Origin: Dolosigranulum savutiense
GTDB taxonomy: Bacteria; Bacillota; Bacilli; Lactobacillales; Carnobacteriaceae_A
DNA: 64,000 nucleotides
Assembly: GCF_039830095.1 (NCBI RefSeq)
Contig: NZ_CP142435.1
Span: 620,001 to 684,000, forward strand
Reading direction: 5' to 3'
The translations under genes were made by a program, and so were the position numbers. Position 1 is the first letter of the stretch. Each line of letters begins with the position of its first letter. Positions 23,749-48,699 of the stretch are shown one piece after another. Below the pieces are notes generated by a model. That model worked only from the letters and a program-made list of their open reading frames with translations. It had not been told where the DNA came from and did no database searches.

Positions 23749-24630
23749 TTATATCATATAGTCCTCACTATATGGGATAAGCGGTTCTTTATTTCTCGGA
23801 ATCGATTTTACTATCTTTTCACCCGATTTATCCCATTGCACAAGTGCATAGTACGGATCATGATAAAAAATAAATTGAGACTGATGACTGAATCCATATT
23901 CTAACCATTTCTTCTTTTGTTCGATTGAAGTCATCGGATAATCATCAACAGCTGGAACCCATAATGGATTAAGGTGTGCTGTGGTCATTAATAAATCGCC
24001 CATATGAATCATGGTCTCATCATTCTGAGCAATAACAACAATCGAATGCCCCCGCGAATGACCTCCTGTATGATGAAGTGTTATCGCATCATTTAACTCA
24101 AACTTGTCAGAAAATGTAACCACTTGATCTTGAACCGGCTGCCAATTATCTGTCAAATACGTCCCGACCGTTCTCTCATTTGGATTTCGGACGTCATCCC
24201 ACTCTATTTCATTCATATAAATAGTTGCATTAGGAAAAACAGGCTTTAAGGTTTCATTCACTAATTTGGTGAGACCTCCCGCATGATCATTATGCATATG
24301 TGTTTGAATAATCGTATCAATATCAGCCGCAGTTAGATCTAACGCTTGGAGACTCTCTTCAACGGTTGTATCTCGAGTGACCCCAGCATTTCGCCGCTGT
24401 TTATTAGTCATTTTAGAGGTCCCAATTCCAGTATCTATCAAAATATTTTCTCCTTGATATTGCAGTAAAATTGGATCCATTACCTGTGGAATTTGGTTTT
24501 TATTGTTCACTGGAAATTTTTTATTCCAAACAGCTTTCGGTACGGGCCCAAATAATACGCCCCCATCATGATATGAACGCATACCATCTAACCAAGTAAT
24601 CGAAACTTCTCCAAATTGATACGTATTCAT
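23749..24630 (-). CDS. Metallo-beta-lactamase-fold hydrolase, YtnP-like (putative quorum-quenching lactonase)
   Basis: 293 residues. The zinc motif THMHNDHAGGL, the upstream IDTGIG and a later metal His (HTGGHSRGH) are intact, with Asp in HMGDLL. The N-terminal pattern (ITWLDGMRSYHDGGVLFGPV, then PKAVWNKKFP) closely resembles B. subtilis YtnP, a lactonase that degrades acyl-homoserine-lactone-type or Streptomyces signals. GGGAGTGAG precedes the ATG. It is probably co-transcribed with the FabK-like gene 18 bp upstream. The natural substrate is not proven. Confidence 0.8.
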   Translation of the reverse strand: MNTYQFGEVSITWLDGMRSYHDGGVLFGPVPKAVWNKKFPVNNKNQIPQVMDPILLQYQGENILIDTGIGTSKMTNKQRRNAGVTRDTTVEESLQALDLTAADIDTIIQTHMHNDHAGGLTKLVNETLKPVFPNATIYMNEIEWDDVRNPNERTVGTYLTDNWQPVQDQVVTFSDKFELNDAITLHHTGGHSRGHSIVVIAQNDETMIHMGDLLMTTAHLNPLWVPAVDDYPMTSIEQKKKWLEYGFSHQSQFIFYHDPYYALVQWDKSGEKIVKSIPRNKEPLIPYSEDYMI

Positions 24631-24648: not shown

Positions 24649-25587
24649 TTAATACGGTAGTTCTAATTGTTTTAAGACATCTTTTGCTTCACTCGTAATA
24701 GACGTTATTACTTCAGCGACTGACTTTATTTCTGTAATCAATCCACTAATCTCTCCGGCTTGCATAGTTCCTCTTTGTCTATCCCCTTCTTTAATGGCTT
24801 TGTACAGAGATCCGTTAACTAAATTATCCAGTTCTTCCTGAGAAGCATTAGTTTGTTCCAATTCTAAATATTCTTGCAGCATTTCATTTCTAATCGCACG
24901 AACCGGATGCCCTAAAGTTCTTCCGGTTACAATAGTAGATAAATCATCTGCTTCTATAATCGCCTGTTTAAAACTATCTGGTATTGGACATTCATGAGTT
25001 GCTAAGAATACCGTTCCCATTTGAACACCACTAGCTCCTAAAGCGAGTGTTGCTACTAACCCATGGCCATCACCTATTCCACCAGCAGCTACAACAGGTA
25101 AATGAGTTGCTTTAACAATTTGTCGAACAAGTGGTAGGGTAGATAATTGCCCAATGTGTCCCCCAGCTTCTTGCCCTTCGACTATCAACCCATCTACATT
25201 TAATGCTTCCATTTTTTTAGCGTGCTTAACCGCTGCGATTACTGGCAAAATAATTGTATTATTTTCTTTAAGTTTTGGAATAAACTTTTTAGGGGATCCC
25301 GCTCCTGTAGTGACTATAGGAACATTTTCTTCCACTACCACGTCTACTAGCTCTTCTATATTCTTTTGAATTAATGTCAAATTAACAGCAAATGGCTTAT
25401 CTGTCTGCTTCTTAACTTCTTGTATTTGTTCTCTTAACTCTTCTTTATCCATCCCACCGGTTGTCAGTACACCTAATCCACCAGCATTAGATACCGCACT
25501 AACTAATGGACTACGTGATATATACTGCAGTCCCCCTTGAATGATTGGATATTTTATATTAAGTAACTCTGTAATACTAGACATCAT
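24649..25587 (-). CDS. FabK/nitronate monooxygenase-family FMN flavoprotein (copy 1)
   Basis: About 312 residues from the ATG at 25587 (AAGGAG ahead). A TIM-barrel NMO/FabK enzyme with NIKYPIIQGG, TTGAGSPKKFI, EGQEAGGHIG and VAAGGIGDGHG (FMN phosphate loop). FabK reduces enoyl-ACP in fatty-acid synthesis, while NMOs oxidise nitronates; sequence alone does not separate them well. A paralogue with the same motifs lies in the beta-oxidation cluster at 42273, and no fatty-acid synthesis genes are nearby. Confidence 0.8.
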   Translation of the reverse strand: MMSSITELLNIKYPIIQGGLQYISRSPLVSAVSNAGGLGVLTTGGMDKEELREQIQEVKKQTDKPFAVNLTLIQKNIEELVDVVVEENVPIVTTGAGSPKKFIPKLKENNTIILPVIAAVKHAKKMEALNVDGLIVEGQEAGGHIGQLSTLPLVRQIVKATHLPVVAAGGIGDGHGLVATLALGASGVQMGTVFLATHECPIPDSFKQAIIEADDLSTIVTGRTLGHPVRAIRNEMLQEYLELEQTNASQEELDNLVNGSLYKAIKEGDRQRGTMQAGEISGLITEIKSVAEVITSITSEAKDVLKQLELPY

Positions 25588-25866
25588 AACACTCCTTCTT
25601 ATAATCGTTTCCAATGACTATTAACTAAAGTATAAACATTTAAAGTGCTTTATTCAAACATTTACCGTTTTTTCGGAAAGGATTTCAAAAATGAATTCTA
25701 GAAAATCCAGGGCAGCACATCATATTATGGAAAACTCAGTTTCAAGAGGAATACTCCTTTTTAATATCTAGAAACAGATTTATTACCTACTATCATTAAA
25801 TTATTAATAACAAATAAAATTTCTCAACTATATCTATTATTTAATCAAATCACGTACAGGAATAAA

Positions 25867-38575: not shown

Positions 38576-38619
38576 AATGGTTGTGATCACATAGATTGAT
38601 AGATTGGGAAGGAGCATTT

Positions 38620-39816
38620 ATGACTGAAACGACTTATTCTAAGCTGTTTAAACCGGTAACTTTACCGAACGGAATCGTTCTACCTAACCGTTTCTGTATG
38701 TGTCCGGTCACCACCAATTCCTCGACGCGAGAAGGATTCGTCACACAAGAAGATATTGATTATGCTCGACGCCGTAGTCACTCAGCTCCACTGCAAGTAA
38801 CGAGTGCCGCTTATATCGAGCCTTATGGTCAACTGTTTGAGTTTTCATTTAGTATTGACGATGATCGCTCAATTCCTGGCCTGACGAAATTGGCTGAAGC
38901 AATGCAACAAGATGGAGCTCACGGTATCATCCAACTTGCACATGCGGGCCGATTCTCTACTCAAGCCATCAAAGATTATGGCGTGTCTTATGGACCAAGT
39001 GCAATGGAGTTGAAGACACCGATCCCTCACCAAGTACTCGCAATGAGTGAACGAAAGATTAGACATGTCATCCAAGCTTACGGTGACGCTACGAGACGGG
39101 CAATTAAGGCCGGCTTTAGTGGCGTTGAAATCTCAATGGCCCAGCGATTGTTACCCCAAACATTCTTCTCCACCTTCTCCAACAAGCGTGATGATCAATA
39201 TGGCACGGATTCGTTGGAGAACCGTGCGCGGTTAACACTGGAAATCTTTGAAGAAGTTCAGCGGGTTATCGATGAAGAAGCCCCTGATAATTTCATTTTA
39301 GGCTTCCGCGGCACCCCTGAGGAAACACGGGGAGATGAAGTAGGCTACAGCATTGAAGAATACTTAACCTTATTAGACTGGGTTTTAGAGATAGCCAATG
39401 TCCAGTATTTTGCTGTTGCTAGCTGGGGGAAAAATATTTATCTCAATAAAGTTCGCTCTCAAGGAAACTATCACGGCCAATACGTCAATGAAGTTGTGCA
39501 ACATCACTTATCAGGGCGTACAGTTACCATGGCGACGGGTGGTATTAATTCACCATACAAAGCACTCGAAGCGCTCGAAAATGGGGATATGGTTGGTCTC
39601 TCTAGTGTATTCGTCACTGAGCCCGATTTTGTCACAAAAATTGAAGACGGACGAGCAGAAGACATTGACTTAGGGATTGACTTAGACAACATAGATGAAT
39701 TAGCTATCCCACAAGCCGCCTTCAAAGACTTAATTAAATTAATGGATCTCGGACAATCCCTGTCCAAAGACACAACATCCACCCTAAAAGAACTCGAAAA
39801 AAATTATACAAAATAA
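38620..39816 (+). CDS. Old Yellow Enzyme-family flavin oxidoreductase with altered active site
   Basis: 398 residues from the ATG at 38620 (GGAAGGAG ahead). An FMN TIM barrel: LFKPVTLPNGIVLPNRFCMC start, IIQLAHAGR, GFSGVEI, YGTDSLENRARL and MATGGINSP. Typical OYE/YqjM enzymes have a His pair in the IHAAHGYL segment that binds the substrate. Here that segment reads ISMAQRLL, so both His are replaced (Ser and Gln). Fold and cofactor sites look intact but the substrate may be unusual. It is 16 bp upstream of the MetQ-like genes and probably co-transcribed. Confidence 0.82.
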   Translation: MTETTYSKLFKPVTLPNGIVLPNRFCMCPVTTNSSTREGFVTQEDIDYARRRSHSAPLQVTSAAYIEPYGQLFEFSFSIDDDRSIPGLTKLAEAMQQDGAHGIIQLAHAGRFSTQAIKDYGVSYGPSAMELKTPIPHQVLAMSERKIRHVIQAYGDATRRAIKAGFSGVEISMAQRLLPQTFFSTFSNKRDDQYGTDSLENRARLTLEIFEEVQRVIDEEAPDNFILGFRGTPEETRGDEVGYSIEEYLTLLDWVLEIANVQYFAVASWGKNIYLNKVRSQGNYHGQYVNEVVQHHLSGRTVTMATGGINSPYKALEALENGDMVGLSSVFVTEPDFVTKIEDGRAEDIDLGIDLDNIDELAIPQAAFKDLIKLMDLGQSLSKDTTSTLKELEKNYTK

Positions 39817-39832
39817 AGGAGAAATTTTTTAA

Positions 39833-40783
39833 ATGAAACATATAAAAACATTACTGAAAGCAGCTGTACTATTCTTAGTATCATTTATTATTGTTGCTTG
39901 TACGAGCCAAGATGCTGGATCTAAAGATACGGATACAACTACCCAAGATGACACCGCACAAGAAACGACGACAGATAGTGGAGAGCCCACTGTTATTAAA
40001 GTCGGCATGGCTAATGAGCTTACTAAAGCAACTTGGGATGACGTGGGTAAACGTTTATTAGAAAAAGAAAATATTAAGGTAGAAACTCAAGTCTTCAGTG
40101 ATTTCAGCACACCTAACCGTGCACTTAGTGATGGGGACATTGACTTAAATGCTTACCAATACATTTCATTCTTGGCCCAATACAATCAAGATGCCGATAC
40201 TGAATTACGTCCAATCGGTTATGCTTACTTGCCACCACTAGCTATGTTTGCTAAAGAGGGGATTGAATCAATTGATGATATTCCTGAAGGAGCTAAAATT
40301 TCATTCACAGAAGATCCGACGAACACAGATAATACCTTGCTTCAATTAGAAAAAATGGGCTTAATCGAAGTAGAACACAAACCGGGTGAACGTCTAACAA
40401 TTGATGATGTCACTAAAAACCCTAAAAATCTTGAATTTGTTCCGCTAGCAAGCCCAGAGGTGGTTCGTTCATTGCTTACTGGTGATGTGGACTTAATGAT
40501 TACCGGATTATCTATGTCAACAGATGGTGGTCTAGATCCTGAAGATGCTCTCTACATTGAAGATCCCGCTGACACACCTTACTACTACAAAGTTATGATT
40601 GTCTCTCAAGAAGATCGTGTTGATGATGAAGTTCTCCAAAAAGCGGTAGCAGAATTCCAGAGCGAAGAAACTCGACAATTTGTGGAAGAAAACTTCGGTC
40701 AATCCTACTTGCCAGCTTGGACAGAAGGAGAAACACCGCTAGAAGACTATGATAAATATGTTGAAGAGTTTATGAAGAACTAA
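39833..40783 (+). CDS. MetQ/NlpA-family substrate-binding lipoprotein, copy 1
   Basis: 316 residues with a lipoprotein signal (LVSFIIVACTSQ) and a Thr/Asp-rich linker (about residues 25-50). The MetQ fold then follows (VIKVGMANELTKATWDDVGK, DLNAYQYISFLAQYN, GYAYLPPLAMFAKEGI). MetQ proteins bind methionine or its relatives for the MetNI importer. No metN or metI is adjacent. It shares strong similarity with the next gene. Confidence 0.88.
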   Translation: MKHIKTLLKAAVLFLVSFIIVACTSQDAGSKDTDTTTQDDTAQETTTDSGEPTVIKVGMANELTKATWDDVGKRLLEKENIKVETQVFSDFSTPNRALSDGDIDLNAYQYISFLAQYNQDADTELRPIGYAYLPPLAMFAKEGIESIDDIPEGAKISFTEDPTNTDNTLLQLEKMGLIEVEHKPGERLTIDDVTKNPKNLEFVPLASPEVVRSLLTGDVDLMITGLSMSTDGGLDPEDALYIEDPADTPYYYKVMIVSQEDRVDDEVLQKAVAEFQSEETRQFVEENFGQSYLPAWTEGETPLEDYDKYVEEFMKN

Positions 40784-40805
40784 CAATTAGTTAAAGGAGA
40801 ATTCA

Positions 40806-41735
40806 ATGAAACAATTGAAAGTTTTTTTCAGAGCATCACTGCTACTATTAGTATCGTTTATCATCGTAGCGTGTGGAAACCAAGACTCTAGTAATGCATC
40901 CACAACTAACCAAGATGTTGTAACTAATGATGAGGAGCCAACTGTTGTCAAAGTCGGTATGGGAACTGAAGATGGTCGCATCATGTGGGAAGAAATTGGA
41001 GAACGTCTATTAGAGCACGAAAATATTAAAATAGAACCCGTTGTTATTAACGACTTTTATCAACTCAATCGTGCACTAAGTGACGGAGATATTGATATGA
41101 ATCTTTATCAATATATATCTTTCCTCGCTCAGTACAACGAAGATGCTGGAACAGAATTACGTCCAATTGGATATGGTTCTATTCCACCAATTGCCATTTT
41201 TGCTGATCCATCAATTCAGTCGATTGATGACATTCCAGACGGTGCTCGTGTATCATTTACGGATGACCCGGTTAATATTGACAACTCATTAATTCAATTA
41301 AAAACGGCCGGCTTAATTGAAGTTGAAGAAGTTGAAGGAGAACGACTAAGTATTGACAAAATCACTAACAATCCGAAAAACTTAGAATTTATTCCACTTG
41401 AAGGCCCTGAAGTTGCTCGTTCATTAGCAACAGGTGATGTGGACGTGATGATCACCGGTCTTTCGATGGCTAATGATGCTGGATTCAAACCAGAAGATGC
41501 ACTTTATATTGAAGATACTGACAAAACACCTTATTACTACCAAGTTATGATGGTTACAAATAAAGATCGGGTAGATGATGAAGTGCTCAAAACAGTTGTT
41601 GACTACTATCAATCAGAAGAAACTGTGAAATCCGAAAAAGCTCGTCGTGGTGATGCATATGTTCCCGCATGGCATGAAGGAGAAACACCGCTAGAAGACT
41701 ATGATAAATACGTTGAAGAGTTTATGAAGAACTAA
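40806..41735 (+). CDS. MetQ/NlpA-family substrate-binding lipoprotein, copy 2
   Basis: 309 residues, a tandem paralogue of the previous gene, with the same signal (VSFIIVACGNQ) and an identical C-terminus (GETPLEDYDKYVEEFMKN). Differences cluster in the ligand region (TEDGRIMWEEIGERLL against NELTKATWDDVGKRLL), suggesting separate ligands. AAAGGAG precedes the ATG and a strong terminator follows. No cognate ATPase or permease is nearby. Confidence 0.88.
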   Translation: MKQLKVFFRASLLLLVSFIIVACGNQDSSNASTTNQDVVTNDEEPTVVKVGMGTEDGRIMWEEIGERLLEHENIKIEPVVINDFYQLNRALSDGDIDMNLYQYISFLAQYNEDAGTELRPIGYGSIPPIAIFADPSIQSIDDIPDGARVSFTDDPVNIDNSLIQLKTAGLIEVEEVEGERLSIDKITNNPKNLEFIPLEGPEVARSLATGDVDVMITGLSMANDAGFKPEDALYIEDTDKTPYYYQVMMVTNKDRVDDEVLKTVVDYYQSEETVKSEKARRGDAYVPAWHEGETPLEDYDKYVEEFMKN

Positions 41736-42272: not shown

Positions 42273-43199
42273 TTATATGCGCTCTTTCGCTTCATGGTAG
42301 CTTGCCATTAACGCTTCGATAATAGTCGCTGCTGGCTGAATGCGGTCAATCATCCCTGCAATCTGACCGGTCATCACACTCCCTCGTTCAACATCATCCT
42401 GCTCTACTGCACGAACATATGATTCATATAACATCGGCCGGATTGCTTCATAATTAGCTCCAGAAAATTCTTTTTTCAAGCAGTCTTGAATAAGTTCATT
42501 CGCAATATTACGCACCGGAAGTCCCCATGATAAACCTGTCAGAGCTGTCGCAACATCATCGGCATCGATAAGCGCCTGCTTATAGCGTTGACCCAGCGCA
42601 CATTCTTCTGCTGTCAGGAATAGCGACCCAATCTGCACCCCGATTGCTCCCAAGGCTTCCATGGCCAATATCGCCTCGCCACTCCCAATGCCGCCCGCTG
42701 CAATAATAGGTAATTCCACTTTTTTTCGTAACTGCTGAATAAGCGGTAAAGTCGCTGTCAAGCCAACATGTCCACCTGCCTCATACCCTTCAGCAATAAT
42801 AGCATCTACACCTAATTTAGCCATTTTAACCGCATGCTTAACTTGAGACACTACCGGTATCACTTTAATCCCTGCTGCTTGTAAATCAGCTGCGAAAGCC
42901 TTCGGTGAGCCTGCTCCGGTGGTTACAGCAGTGACCTTTTCAGTTAATATCACTTCCACTATTTCGGGAATATTATCTTGTTGTAACATTAAATTAACAC
43001 CAAATGGATGCTCAGTTAATGATTTAACTCGCCGAATTTCTTGTCGTAATTCCTCCTTGGTGTATCCAACTGATGTGAGCACCCCAAATCCACCTGCTTC
43101 GCTTACCGCACTAACTAAGGTGCTATCAGAGATCCGAGCCATACCCCCTTGAATAATCGGATATTGTATCCCTAATAGTTCTGTTAACGGCTTAGTCAT
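42273..43199 (-). CDS. FabK/nitronate monooxygenase-family flavoprotein in the beta-oxidation operon (copy 2)
   Basis: 308 residues with the FMN-barrel motifs GIQYPIIQGGMARI, TTGAGSPKAF, EGYEAGGHVG and AAGGIGSGEAI. Its ATG overlaps the thiolase stop by 8 bases with AGGAGG inside the thiolase gene, so it is an integral fourth member of the operon. In Bacillus the fadNA genes are followed by the acyl-CoA dehydrogenase fadE; here this flavoprotein takes that place. It may reduce enoyl-CoA or act on nitronates; its reaction is not known from sequence. Confidence 0.82.
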   Translation of the reverse strand: MTKPLTELLGIQYPIIQGGMARISDSTLVSAVSEAGGFGVLTSVGYTKEELRQEIRRVKSLTEHPFGVNLMLQQDNIPEIVEVILTEKVTAVTTGAGSPKAFAADLQAAGIKVIPVVSQVKHAVKMAKLGVDAIIAEGYEAGGHVGLTATLPLIQQLRKKVELPIIAAGGIGSGEAILAMEALGAIGVQIGSLFLTAEECALGQRYKQALIDADDVATALTGLSWGLPVRNIANELIQDCLKKEFSGANYEAIRPMLYESYVRAVEQDDVERGSVMTGQIAGMIDRIQPAATIIEALMASYHEAKERI

Positions 43200-44412
43200 T
43201 TGCCCTTCCTCCTTTTGGGGAACCTACGTACTCTACAATAGCAGCAGCTCCCATTCCGCCACCAACACACATCGTTATCAGTCCATATCGTCCACCTATT
43301 CGCTCCAGTTCAGATAAGACTTTAGCCACTAGAATCGTTCCTGTAGCACCTGTTGGATGACCCAAAGCAATGGCTCCCCCATTAGGATTTACCCGGTCTG
43401 GATCTAATCCGAGTTCATGGATTACCGCTAGAGCTTGGGCTGCGAAAGCTTCATTCAATTCAATCACATCCATATCTTCCAGAGCTAAACCGGTCTGTTT
43501 CAACACAGCTCTTACTGCCTCGACAGGCCCCATTCCCATGTAATCGGGATCCAGTCCCACAACTTGATATCCCAGAAATACGCCAATAGGGTCAATCCCA
43601 TCTTCGGCTAGTTTTTCTTCTGACATGACGACAACAAACCCGGCTCCATCACTCACTTGTGAACTTGTCGCAGCAGTCACAGTCCCCTCTTGTTTGAAAA
43701 CTGGACGTAATTTGCTGACAGCTTCTATTGTGGTGTCTGGTCGCACTCCTTCATCGGTATCTATCTGGTGTTTGTCCAAGGTGGGATAATGGTTCTCATC
43801 ATAAGTTACAACTGTTGCTTCAACAGGAATAATTTCACGCGCAAAGTATCTTTCTTCCTGTGCTCTTGCTGCTTTATAATGACTAGAAACACCGAACTGA
43901 TCCTGCTCGGCACGAGAGATGTTATATCGCTCAGCTATATTTTCAGCTGTCATGCCCATTGAAGTACTTAAGGATGGCCCGACTGTTTCAAGTTGCCAGT
44001 TCGCAGACAGTTCACACGCCGAAACACCACTTGTTGACATAAACTCGAGCCCCCCAGCAACGACACTGCTGGCTTGTCCAACTTTAATCTGATTTGCAGC
44101 TAATGCGATAGCTTCCAATCCTGAGGCACAAAAACGAGTAAGGGTCATCCCCGGAACAGTTGCTGGTAAGCCTGCTCTCAGTAATAGACGTCGAGCTATA
44201 TTCATTCCTTGCATATTTTCAGGTAATGAACACCCTACAATTAAATCTTGTATCGATGCCGGGTCGAAGGATCCTCCCACTCGTTGCAATACACCCGCTA
44301 AGACTTGTCTCCCTATCTCTTCAGGTTTATCATGGGCAAAATAGCCATTTTCTTTGCCTTTACCTATTGGCGACCGTCCGTAAGCAACAATATAAGCTTT
44401 ATTATCGGTCAT
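43192..44412 (-). CDS. fadA: Acetyl-CoA acyltransferase (3-ketoacyl-CoA thiolase)
   Basis: 406 residues. The nucleophile Cys95 is in [14 protein letters not shown]. The His in [14 protein letters not shown] and the second Cys in [14 protein letters not shown] complete the triad. It cleaves 3-ketoacyl-CoA with CoA to release acetyl-CoA in beta-oxidation; the reverse is possible in chain elongation. It follows fadN as in the Bacillus fadNAE operon. It is longer and more FadA-like than the housekeeping acetoacetyl-CoA thiolase of the mevalonate route. Confidence 0.9.
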
Positions 44413-44435
44413 ATCGATTCTCTCCTTCTATTGCA

Positions 44436-46694
44436 TTAATTCCTAAGTGGTCGTTTGTAAACTTGCATATGGTGAAGTCTCTCCCATGTTGAGTCATGTT
44501 CAATGAGTTCCAAATAATGTGATTGCTCTAATTCGAGGAGATACTCATAATCTATCTCCACGCCTAACGGTAACTCCCCTCCAGCTAATACATCAGCTAT
44601 ACGATTAGCCAACTCTTGTTCAAAATCAGTCACATATCCACCTATGCGCCAATTTTTTACTAGACCGGAAACAACTGCCTTGAAATCTTGGCCTAATGCT
44701 TGATAACGGATGTTTGTCGCAGAGATATGACCAGCTTGGCTAAGCATCTGAACCATAGATAACGCCGTCTGCAATAAGTAACGCTCATTAGCGACAATGA
44801 TATCTTCCGATCGTAAGAATCCTAATTCTCGGGCATGTTGGGCATGTTTCGATACTTGACCATAAGCAACTGTATTAAAGATAGCAAGTAGTTTTTGCTT
44901 TTTCTCGAACCGAGAATCGTCCTGTTGGTAAATACGATCTGCTAATTCAGCTAATCCGCCTCCAGCTGGTAAGAGCCCCACTCCTACTTCGGGAAGTCCC
45001 ATGTAAGTTTGAGCAGCCGCAACAATTCGCGTGGACTGTAGCGCTATTTCTGCTCCTCCGCCCAGCACATGACCTCTAACAGCAGCGACAATTGGTTTAC
45101 GTGCAAACTTCAATCGCTTGACAACTTCATAGCCTAAGTTCGAAATTTCTTTTGCTTTTTGTGAGGGATGGGGATCCTGCTTGATCATCTCAAAGCCACT
45201 AAAATCAAATCCAACTGAAAAATGTGCTCCTTCACCAATGATGACAAGTCCCTTATAATGACCATGTTCTAGTTCATCCACTGCTGCCAAGATATCTTCT
45301 AGAACAGCTGAATTTAAGGCATGATTAGCTGTTCGTAACTCTAGGACTAAACTATTTTGTTTGGTTTGGCTGAGGCGCGTTTGGTGATCATGATGCCATA
45401 ATATTTTTTTAGCTATGGCTAGCGGCGAATTTTCTGAATCTAATGGCTTGTCTTCTGGATAGAACCCGTCTTGGATAGTCTGAATCCAGTCCGGTAACGG
45501 GCCACATTCGACTTCAAGTCGTTCCTTCACACGATGGAAGCCTAACTTATCCCAAATTTGGAATGGTCCTAATGTCCAATTATACCCCCATATGAGTGCT
45601 TGATCGATAGTCCGATAGTCATCAGCTGCTCGCCCAACATTCAAGGTTGCGAAGTACATCACATTACGCAATGATTCCCACATAAAGTGCGCTTCAGGGC
45701 TGTCTTCTGTAAAAATAATATCTAAATTATGTGCCCAATCGCCAGTCTTAAATTTCTTAAAGATAGGAAATGTAGGAAAACTGGCCTGGCGATATTCTCC
45801 CGTTTCAAAATCAAAGGCCCAGCGTTGTCCTTGCTCTTTTTTATAATAACCTTGTCCGACTTTATCTCCCACATAGCCTGCTTTTAATAAAGCATGAGGT
45901 TGCTTTCGTGGCGGAAAAAATTCAGCCAAAAATGTATTTTGGCGATATGCTTTTAAGGCACTTTCTGATAAATCAATTCCGGTTAAATCGGTGAGACGAT
46001 ACGGTCCCATTTTTACCCGCGCCAATTTTGCTCCGGTTAATGCATCGACTTTGGGTATTGACCAATGACGTGCTTCTCCTCGACACATGGCTTCATAATT
46101 CGCATAAAATCCCATTCGATTGGCGACAAATCCCGTCACATCCCGACTCACAATAAATCGTTTGGCTAAAACTTTATCCACTAACTGTTTAAGTTGATTG
46201 ATAGATGAGGGAGTTGTCTGATCTAACGGAATCAGTTCAACTAACTTACTCTGGCTTAATGGTGTAAAAAAATGCACGCCACTGAACCGTTCCTGCACTT
46301 GCTTCGGTAAATTTGTGGCAATCTCTTTCACTTGAAGCGAAGACGTATTCGTACTTAATATAGCTTCTGCAGCAACATAATCAACTACCTCTGCCCAAAC
46401 ATCTTGTTTGATGGTCAAATCCTCTATGACTGACTCGATCACCCATTCACACGTAGCTGCTTCTTCCAAAAACTGAGGATACGAAATGAATCGTAAATGA
46501 TGAATTCGGTCTGTCTCTTGTAATTTTTGCTGAATATCTGCTTGAATAGATTGTTCGGTCTTTTTATCAATCATTCCTTCTGTAACATCTGTCATCTTAA
46601 CTAACGTTGTCTCTAACCCGCGACTGATACACCACGAAGCTAGGTCACGTCCCATCTGTCCTGCTCCTAAAATATGAACCGACTGAATTGTCAT
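44436..46694 (-). CDS. fadN: Bifunctional 3-hydroxyacyl-CoA dehydrogenase / enoyl-CoA hydratase
   Basis: 752 residues. The N-terminal half is a 3-hydroxyacyl-CoA dehydrogenase with NAD motif LGAGQMGRDLASWC (from residue 9), STNTSSL and GVHFFTP. The C-terminal half is a crotonase domain with GAHFSVGFDFSGF and AVRGHVLGGGAEIAL. This HAD-first order is that of Bacillus FadN (789 residues) and opposite to E. coli FadB. It catalyses the second and third steps of beta-oxidation. Some crotonase residues should be checked because one of the Glu positions is unclear by eye. Confidence 0.88.
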   Translation of the reverse strand: MTIQSVHILGAGQMGRDLASWCISRGLETTLVKMTDVTEGMIDKKTEQSIQADIQQKLQETDRIHHLRFISYPQFLEEAATCEWVIESVIEDLTIKQDVWAEVVDYVAAEAILSTNTSSLQVKEIATNLPKQVQERFSGVHFFTPLSQSKLVELIPLDQTTPSSINQLKQLVDKVLAKRFIVSRDVTGFVANRMGFYANYEAMCRGEARHWSIPKVDALTGAKLARVKMGPYRLTDLTGIDLSESALKAYRQNTFLAEFFPPRKQPHALLKAGYVGDKVGQGYYKKEQGQRWAFDFETGEYRQASFPTFPIFKKFKTGDWAHNLDIIFTEDSPEAHFMWESLRNVMYFATLNVGRAADDYRTIDQALIWGYNWTLGPFQIWDKLGFHRVKERLEVECGPLPDWIQTIQDGFYPEDKPLDSENSPLAIAKKILWHHDHQTRLSQTKQNSLVLELRTANHALNSAVLEDILAAVDELEHGHYKGLVIIGEGAHFSVGFDFSGFEMIKQDPHPSQKAKEISNLGYEVVKRLKFARKPIVAAVRGHVLGGGAEIALQSTRIVAAAQTYMGLPEVGVGLLPAGGGLAELADRIYQQDDSRFEKKQKLLAIFNTVAYGQVSKHAQHARELGFLRSEDIIVANERYLLQTALSMVQMLSQAGHISATNIRYQALGQDFKAVVSGLVKNWRIGGYVTDFEQELANRIADVLAGGELPLGVEIDYEYLLELEQSHYLELIEHDSTWERLHHMQVYKRPLRN

Positions 46695-46731
46695 CTCAGG
46701 CCCCTTCCTCGAATTATTCTCATTAATCAGA

Positions 46732-48381
46732 TTAGCTATACTTTTGGACTAAATCATATTTACGAATTTTGCCCGCAACTGATTCAGGTAAACTATCGGT
46801 AAAAATAACTTTCTTCGGTGTCTCGAACCCAGCTAAGCGCTCCCGACAAAAAGCAATCAAGTCCGCTTCATGAATAGTCACTCCATCTTTTAAGACAACC
46901 ACTGCAGTCACTTCTTCTCCCCATTTTTCACTGGGCAGTCCGATAACCGCTGCATTATCCACTGCATCATGTAATTTTATAACAGATTCTACCCGCGGAC
47001 TAGCCACATTTTCTCCACCTGATTTAATAATATCTTTATAACGACCAATCATAATAGAGACCCCCTCGCTATCCTTAGCCAGGCCATCTCCTGATTTGAA
47101 CCAGCCATCTGAGGTGAATGATGCTTTCGTTGCTTCTTCATTCTTATAATAGCCAGAGAAAGAGATTGGAGATTGATAGACCACTTCTCCTGCTTCTTCT
47201 GCGTCTACTTCCTGACCCTGTTCATCAATTCGTTTGGCAGCTAGTGTTGCATCAGGGAAGCCGACATAGTTAACGAACGGCGCTTTTTCAAGATAGGCTG
47301 CTTCATGTTGATCATGGTAGAATCGATAACCAGCAATCACTTCTGTCTGAGCAAAAGATTCAAAAATTTGAATCTGAGGGGCTCCGATTTCTTTCAACCG
47401 TTTGTGATAAGCAGGTTTTAACGCGGCATAGCCATATAAGATAGATGTCAAGCTACTAAAATCGTACAACTGCTCGTGGTCATCATAACAGTCTACTAAT
47501 TTCTCTAACATATCAGAGAACCCCGCCCACAAAGCAGTGACTTTATAATCAGTAATTGCTTGCGCTAACTGAGGATAATCGAGACTTCGACCTAATACTA
47601 GTGTTCCGGCATGTAAAAAAACGGAAGCTGGTAATGTCTGGTCAGCTACATGGTAAATAGTCGGCAAGAAACTAGCCAATACATAATCGCCCGGGAAGGT
47701 AAGTCCGCGTGAAAAATGCATCCCATAATCATAACCAGCAAAATATGTGTAATGATGACTAATCATTACTCCCTTCGGCATACTAGTTGTGCCTGATGTG
47801 AACAAAATTTCCCAAATATCATCACCATGAATCGTTACATCTGGAGCTTCGGTAGAACTTCTATTAACAAAATCAGTAAAGGACTCTGATCCTGTAGCTA
47901 ATTCATCTCCCCCAATCAAAATCGTCACATCACTTGTTCGATTTAGCCGGGATAAGACGGACTCTAATTTTTCATTATGGGCTGCGTCACTAACAATAAA
48001 TACGGGCTCAGTTAATTGAATAATATATTCAATCACATCTGGCGCAATCATTGTATTCACCGGCACATTAACTAAACCCGCCTTAGCTACCCCGAACTTC
48101 CCTATCATTGCTTCAGCTGAATTATCACAGAAAAATAATACTCGATCACCGCGCTGAAATCCTTTTTCTAATAAAGCATTGGCGAACTGATTAGCTGTCT
48201 CATTAAACTGGCGATAACTCACTTTTTGATAATTAGGATGACTATATGCTCCTTCACATGCTATGATCGCATGTTTATCTGGATAACTATACGTAATCCG
48301 TTCTACTAAATCTCCCACGGCTACCCGATTAAATCGACTATCATTACGCCGATTAAATAATGTATTTACATCCACTTCCAC
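46732..48381 (-). CDS. Acyl-CoA ligase (AMP-forming, long/medium-chain type)
   Basis: 549 residues of the ANL superfamily. The AMP motif is LFTSGTTSMPKGVM, with later SGGENVASPRVES and the catalytic Lys in GKIRKYDL. It activates a carboxylic acid with ATP and CoA and would feed FadN. The GTG at 48381 has GAGAGGA ahead. It is the first gene of the operon, behind a clear promoter. Substrate (fatty acid or other acid) is unknown. Confidence 0.85.
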   Translation of the reverse strand: MEVDVNTLFNRRNDSRFNRVAVGDLVERITYSYPDKHAIIACEGAYSHPNYQKVSYRQFNETANQFANALLEKGFQRGDRVLFFCDNSAEAMIGKFGVAKAGLVNVPVNTMIAPDVIEYIIQLTEPVFIVSDAAHNEKLESVLSRLNRTSDVTILIGGDELATGSESFTDFVNRSSTEAPDVTIHGDDIWEILFTSGTTSMPKGVMISHHYTYFAGYDYGMHFSRGLTFPGDYVLASFLPTIYHVADQTLPASVFLHAGTLVLGRSLDYPQLAQAITDYKVTALWAGFSDMLEKLVDCYDDHEQLYDFSSLTSILYGYAALKPAYHKRLKEIGAPQIQIFESFAQTEVIAGYRFYHDQHEAAYLEKAPFVNYVGFPDATLAAKRIDEQGQEVDAEEAGEVVYQSPISFSGYYKNEEATKASFTSDGWFKSGDGLAKDSEGVSIMIGRYKDIIKSGGENVASPRVESVIKLHDAVDNAAVIGLPSEKWGEEVTAVVVLKDGVTIHEADLIAFCRERLAGFETPKKVIFTDSLPESVAGKIRKYDLVQKYS

Positions 48382-48415
48382 ACTTCATTATCCTCTCATT
48401 TATGGTTACTTAAAT

Positions 48416-48443
48416 TGTATAACAGCTGCGCAAAGCCCGTCAA
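48416..48443 (-). promoter_or_regulatory. Promoter of the beta-oxidation operon
   Basis: -35 TTGACG (48438-48443), a 16 bp spacer and -10 TATACA (48416-48421). No FadR-like TetR gene is adjacent and no obvious operator was identified. Confidence 0.65.
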
Positions 48444-48627: not shown

Positions 48628-48661
48628 AAAAAATGATGCCAGCGAGGAAACAATCCTCACT
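48628..48661 (-). terminator. Terminator of the amidase gene
   Basis: On the minus strand AGTGAGGA and TCCTCGCT (48641-48661, one G-T wobble) form an 8 bp stem followed after seven bases by TTTTTT. Confidence 0.65.
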
Positions 48662-48699
48662 AACACCAAATCTTGTCATACTGTAAAATAAATAACGTA

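Follow-up and report, generated by a model that had tools for sequence, protein, structure and literature searches.

What carries out the redox step between acyl-CoA and enoyl-CoA in a beta-oxidation operon that has a FabK-related flavoprotein gene where an acyl-CoA dehydrogenase (ACAD) gene usually stands? The question is raised by a locus of Dolosigranulum savutiense, a fermentative bacterium of the order Lactobacillales. We analysed it within a 64-kb stretch of the genome (the window, to which plain coordinates refer), and compared it with other genomes of the order.

A four-gene operon that ends in a FabK-like gene

Positions 42273–48381 of the window, on the minus strand, hold a tight operon of four intact open reading frames, for each of which Pfam and NCBIfam profiles support the family name. 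The order is acyl-CoA ligase, FadN-type hydratase/3-hydroxyacyl-CoA dehydrogenase, thiolase and FabK-like FMN protein. The first gene (46732–48381, minus strand) has a GTG start and encodes an AMP-forming acyl-CoA ligase of 549 amino acids (PF00501/PF13193). It is followed after 37 bp by a gene for a 752-amino-acid fusion of the FadN/Staphylococcus FadB type (44436–46694, minus strand; NF052272), and after a further 23 bp by the gene for the 406-amino-acid 3-ketoacyl-CoA thiolase FadA (43192–44412, minus strand; TIGR01930). The final gene (42273–43199, minus strand; PF03060), which encodes a FabK-like FMN flavoprotein of 308 amino acids, overlaps fadA by 8 bp (43192–43199), so that the coupled operon of the original prediction holds in its reading frames, families and spacing.

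Directly upstream of the ligase gene lies a promoter-like site, TTGACG-18-TACAAT (48414–48443, minus strand; 10/12 consensus matches), a weak pattern match of a type whose count in the region is not above chance. Between the upstream amidase gene and the operon is a terminator-like stem of 15 pairs followed by a T run (48634–48668, minus strand), also a weak pattern match. A search upstream of the cassettes described here revealed neither an operator nor a cre site common to them. Genes for an OYE-family flavoprotein and two MetQ-like lipoproteins (38596–41735) converge on the 3′ end of the operon; OYE (33% identical) and MetQ genes also adjoin an Aerococcus cassette (L054:16775–19027, L074).

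In the FadN fusion, the 3-hydroxyacyl-CoA dehydrogenase is N-terminal and the enoyl-CoA hydratase C-terminal. The protein matches the Staphylococcus FadB model NF052272 over its full length, with a score of 741 bits that falls short of the 999 cut-off, and retains the crotonase residues Glu549 and Glu569, which align with E550 and E570 of S. aureus FadB, both functionally required (PMC12369327). FadA scores above the TIGR01930 cut-off, at 429.6 bits, and its alignment retains the thiolase active site: the nucleophilic Cys, the GHP/GHA His and the C-terminal Cys. The ligase is more divergent, reaching 216.9 bits against the Staphylococcus FadD model NF052269 (cut-off 650), compared with 697 for a canonical Aerococcus FadD. 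The solved chain closest to it is that of Mycobacterium tuberculosis FadD13 (3r44).

The cassette thus shares with fadXDEBA of S. aureus and with the Staphylococcus-type operons of Lactobacillales a ligase, a dehydrogenase-first FadN/FadB fusion, a thiolase and the crotonase glutamates, but has neither FadE nor FadX, and its ligase belongs to another clade, sharing about 25% identity with FadD from the ordinary fad operons of Lactobacillales. It also carries a FabK, whereas many of the Staphylococcus-type operons of Lactobacillales carry a PA1024-like nitronate monooxygenase (NMO)-family protein. With the Bacillus fadN–fadA–fadE operon it shares fadN, fadA and a flavoprotein gene in third place; that third gene encodes an FMN-binding TIM-barrel FabK in the cassette rather than the ACAD FadE, and the D. 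savutiense genome has no ETF.

No canonical ACAD or ETF in the genome

The D. savutiense genome is a single finished contig (C1) of 1.98 Mb, 98.6% complete, and we searched it with family profiles, among them PF00441 (ACAD) and PF01012 (ETF), both of which gave matches in control genomes. No ACAD is encoded in the window, as originally claimed. In the whole genome PF00441 yielded a single match (C1:1653910–1654284, 44.5 bits), in a 379-amino-acid protein unlinked to the operon, and PF01012 yielded none. The unlinked protein was rejected as a FadE: its NCBIfam matches, to FadE16, SfnB and DszC-type proteins, are loose, and in the alignment it has no catalytic Glu, QPSD replacing the YEGT of FadE proteins. 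The genome is therefore without a canonical ACAD and without ETF, and the finding that the original prediction had named as speaking against it, a true ACAD with etfAB elsewhere in the genome, did not appear with either profile.

The cassette recurs in a second family

Among 246 sampled genomes of the order Lactobacillales, 19 encode FadN. This count refines the original view of beta-oxidation as unusual in this order: FadN-type operons are uncommon, yet at this frequency not exceptional. The same ligase–FadN–FadA–FabK order, with nothing added, is present in two further genomes, G188 and G076 (Aerococcus sp. HMSC062A02), of a second family that we take, from G076, to be Aerococcaceae. Comparison of these two genomes shows purifying selection on each of the four genes (dN/dS 0.07–0.17). 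Because the order recurs and its genes are under such selection, the grouping is not due to chance, and conservation of the operon together with FabK, which the original prediction had left to be checked, extends beyond the family of D. savutiense. In trees, the ligase, FadN and thiolase of the cassette fall into supported clades of their own, apart from canonical fad operons (support 100/100 for the ligase).

G188 gave no ACAD match whatever and G076 only a weak DszC-like one, and no ETF was found in either. By eye, the G076 match was annotated as belonging to an operon that also encodes a sulfonate-type ABC transporter. A canonical ACAD is encoded in 15 of the 16 other FadN genomes, the exception being G198. 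The association between the FabK cassette and the absence of a canonical ACAD (Fisher p 0.004) comes from three carriers, two of which are sister species, and so is not phylogenetically independent.

Partial forms of the cassette also occur. G260 has ligase, FadN and FadA without FabK, with a canonical FadE elsewhere in the genome, and G175 has the cassette ligase alone. A class-wide sample of 399 genomes contained no further cassette ligase. Scanning named genomes with the FadN alignment recovered one true cassette only, that of Aerococcus sp. HMSC062A02 (L074); the other matches were remoter, mostly confined to the 3-hydroxyacyl-CoA dehydrogenase part, and had no FabK or NMO nearby.

The operon flavoprotein groups with FabK, apart from enzymes of fatty acid synthesis

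D. savutiense encodes three FabK paralogs. The FabK of fatty acid synthesis (FAS) is a separate gene (C1:706959) between fabH and fabD in a fabH–fabK–fabD–fabG–fabF–fabZ–acc operon, and it scores above the TIGR03151 equivalog cut-off of 453.1 (463.4 bits), whereas the operon FabK falls below it (325.3 bits). The third, FabK2 (24649–25614, minus strand; 49% identical), is a second non-FAS paralog outside the operon, likewise below the cut-off at 390 bits. It neighbours a gene for a YtnP-like metallo-hydrolase (23749–24630), and a FabK2-like protein is encoded inside a FadE-containing operon of G260 (L165:9242–10141), which suggests that FabK2 and this counterpart both act in CoA-level fatty acid metabolism.

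In alignments the operon FabK keeps the catalytic His144 within a GGH motif but has lost the FAS-conserved Trp22, which is replaced by Arg, and Tyr102-Met103; at the Trp22 motif FabK carries Trp and 2-NMOs carry Gly (PMC13311796). Its only cysteines are Cys200 and Cys240. The protein scores 143.6 bits against PA1024 and 266.7 against the best FabK. In the tree, the cassette FabKs and a tandem pair from G139 form their own clade (100/99), away from the FAS FabK clade (100/99) and distinct from the PA1024-like NMO clade of ordinary Lactobacillales fad operons. A nitronate monooxygenase reading of the operon FabK was accordingly rejected, and an active site of the nitronate type, cited at the outset as a finding that would count against the prediction, is disfavoured. 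The fold of the predicted model best matches FabKs (Z 31.3 with NADPH-bound 4iql, against 22.4 with FabX); the model, whose quality is moderate (pLDDT 70.6, with a low-scoring C-terminal lid), serves only to rank folds. Judged by its sequence, the operon FabK has left the FAS clade.

FabK and NMO proteins accompany other fad operons

The remaining FadN genomes mostly have a Staphylococcus-type operon with FadE, often with an added hydratase, LysR regulator, NMO, second FadE or FadX. The NMO of these operons forms a clade of its own and is closest to PA1024, an NADH:quinone reductase according to its PDB entry. ETF was not found in 16 of the 19 FadN genomes, in searches that left out G260 and G175. 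In eight genomes, a fadXDEBA-type operon with a canonical FadE occurs with no ETF found genome-wide. FadN loci without an NMO/FabK flavoprotein occur only in one genus, g30, which is also the sole genus with ETF (three of its four genomes). We rejected this pattern as independent evidence that NMO/FabK proteins stand in for ETF, as it rests on that one genus.

FabKs outside FAS likewise lie near CoA-level genes. They are found in or beside FadE-containing CoA operons in G261 and G055, and beside a FadX-like transferase in G088. G139 has the tandem pair of cassette-type FabKs near two FadN–FadA pairs, a split CoA transferase and FadE. In G261 the gene order is LysR–ECH–CoA transferase–FadE–thiolase–HBD–FabK, and in G138 LysR–FabK only, with identical flanking genes, as if the middle genes had come or gone together. 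Whether or not FadE is present, FabK thus turns up repeatedly alongside genes of CoA-level fatty acid metabolism. G198, in which the genomic ACAD match is weak, has a FadE-less operon of a different make-up (NMO, ligase, FadA, FadN, a CoA-transferase-like gene and two ECH genes), and may represent an ACAD-free fad operon that arose a second time.

A candidate enoyl-CoA reductase in a ligase-fed pathway

Our preferred but tentative reading of these sequence relationships, to which we assign a probability of roughly 0.42, is that the operon FabK may be an NAD(P)H-dependent enoyl-CoA reductase in a ligase-fed pathway whose entry point lies below the ACAD step. The ligase would activate an exogenous acid that is already α,β-unsaturated or 3-oxygenated, FadN would hydrate and oxidise the activated acid, yielding NADH, and the thiolase would liberate acetyl-CoA, while FabK would convert part of the enoyl-CoA to acyl-CoA with NAD(P)H. 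Thermodynamically, the reduction of enoyl-CoA with NAD(P)H is strongly favoured. With a FAS FabK already encoded in the fab operon, the copy studied here is free for another role, and the genes linked to it all encode, by their profiles, CoA-thioester enzymes. That the carrier is CoA rather than ACP, that the reaction runs reductively and what kind of substrate is used are inferences from these data.

A precedent is ArkA, a non-FAS FabK of Bacillaceae that is linked to acrylate resistance and proposed to reduce acrylyl-CoA, as given in the available part of the source (PMC4029986). By that description, ArkA and the cassette protein would be alike as FabK-type proteins outside FAS with a proposed enoyl-CoA reduction, and the gain from FabK could be redox balance or the removal of reactive enoyl-CoA, as proposed for ArkA. 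They differ in that the same part of the source describes no beta-oxidation operon for ArkA.

Three observations run against an enoyl-CoA reductase: with FabK at the ACAD step, the four genes would make up exactly one full turn of beta-oxidation; the genomes that carry FabK in the cassette are the ones lacking a canonical ACAD; and, as the cassette has no thioesterase or CoA-transferase, disposal of the acyl-CoA would be left to other genes. The first two lead to the leading alternative, the substitution proposed in the original prediction, by which FabK would replace FadE as an ETF-independent dehydrogenase or oxidase, using O2 or another acceptor, that converts acyl-CoA to trans-2-enoyl-CoA and completes an ACAD-free four-enzyme spiral. 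We consider this less likely but a serious rival. In its favour, the three cassette genomes have no canonical ACAD or ETF, nearly all other FadN genomes have an ACAD, the FabK-less cassette genome G260 has FadE elsewhere, and the FadE-less exception G198 also carries a flavoprotein of the superfamily in its operon. Against it, redox potentials make NAD+-linked acyl-CoA oxidation unfavourable, and the best structural matches of the predicted fold are FabKs that use NAD(P)H. G139 has FadE near sister FabKs, and in G261 FadE and FabK share one operon. Because G260 has the cassette without FabK and related FabKs stand beside FadE operons, FabK is not simply a FadE substitute, and its relatives in FadE-bearing CoA operons fit an accessory reductase better than a replacement. 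The original proposal therefore stands as regards the missing ACAD and ETF, but G260, G139, G261 and G055 speak against a plain swap.

Precedents for the dehydrogenating direction exist in the NMO/FabK superfamily. FabX, the acyl-ACP dehydrogenase/isomerase of Helicobacter, needs four C-terminal Fe-S cysteines (PMC8626469); the operon FabK, a remote relative by sequence (E ~8e-11), has none of these four cysteines of the 4Fe-4S subdomain. IpdC, together with IpdF, helps to introduce a double bond into a CoA thioester in steroid-ring catabolism (PMC5380842), and so works on a CoA thioester in a beta-oxidation-like pathway, but it is about 30% identical to FabK, has a ring substrate and acts with IpdF.

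It is improbable that FabK is just a passenger in last position, either an extra enoyl-ACP reductase or a flavoenzyme that detoxifies quinones or nitronates. The cassette of G260 does exist without FabK, and PA1024-like relatives of the NADH:quinone reductase sit in ordinary fad operons, but FabK holds an identical position, with coupled spacing and under purifying selection, in the three genomes, which span two families, and the protein falls outside the FAS clade as well as the NMO clade. Less probable still is reverse beta-oxidation, in which thiolase, FadN and FabK would use NADH to elongate a ligase-activated primer with acetyl-CoA: FabK would supply the one reaction by which the reverse route differs from the forward one, and neither ETF nor Bcd would be needed, but the cassette has no thioesterase, CoA-transferase or alcohol-forming enzyme for product release, it begins with an AMP-forming ligase, typical of uptake, and the genome has type II FAS. 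On balance we favour a reductive role at the CoA level over dehydrogenation, with elongation and passenger roles less likely.

Discussion

The cassette is a real and previously unstudied unit in a fermentative bacterium, in which a FabK-related flavoenzyme stands at the usual place of an ACAD; we found no biochemical data on its proteins in the literature. Acyl-CoA/enoyl-CoA redox in Lactobacillales without ETF is unexplained, even where FadE is present. As the cassette is conserved and compact, with no canonical ACAD and one candidate flavoenzyme, the redox question becomes testable with four proteins. Either role, CoA-level reduction in a ligase-fed pathway or ACAD-free acyl-CoA dehydrogenation, would, if true, widen the known repertoire of the FabK/NMO superfamily.
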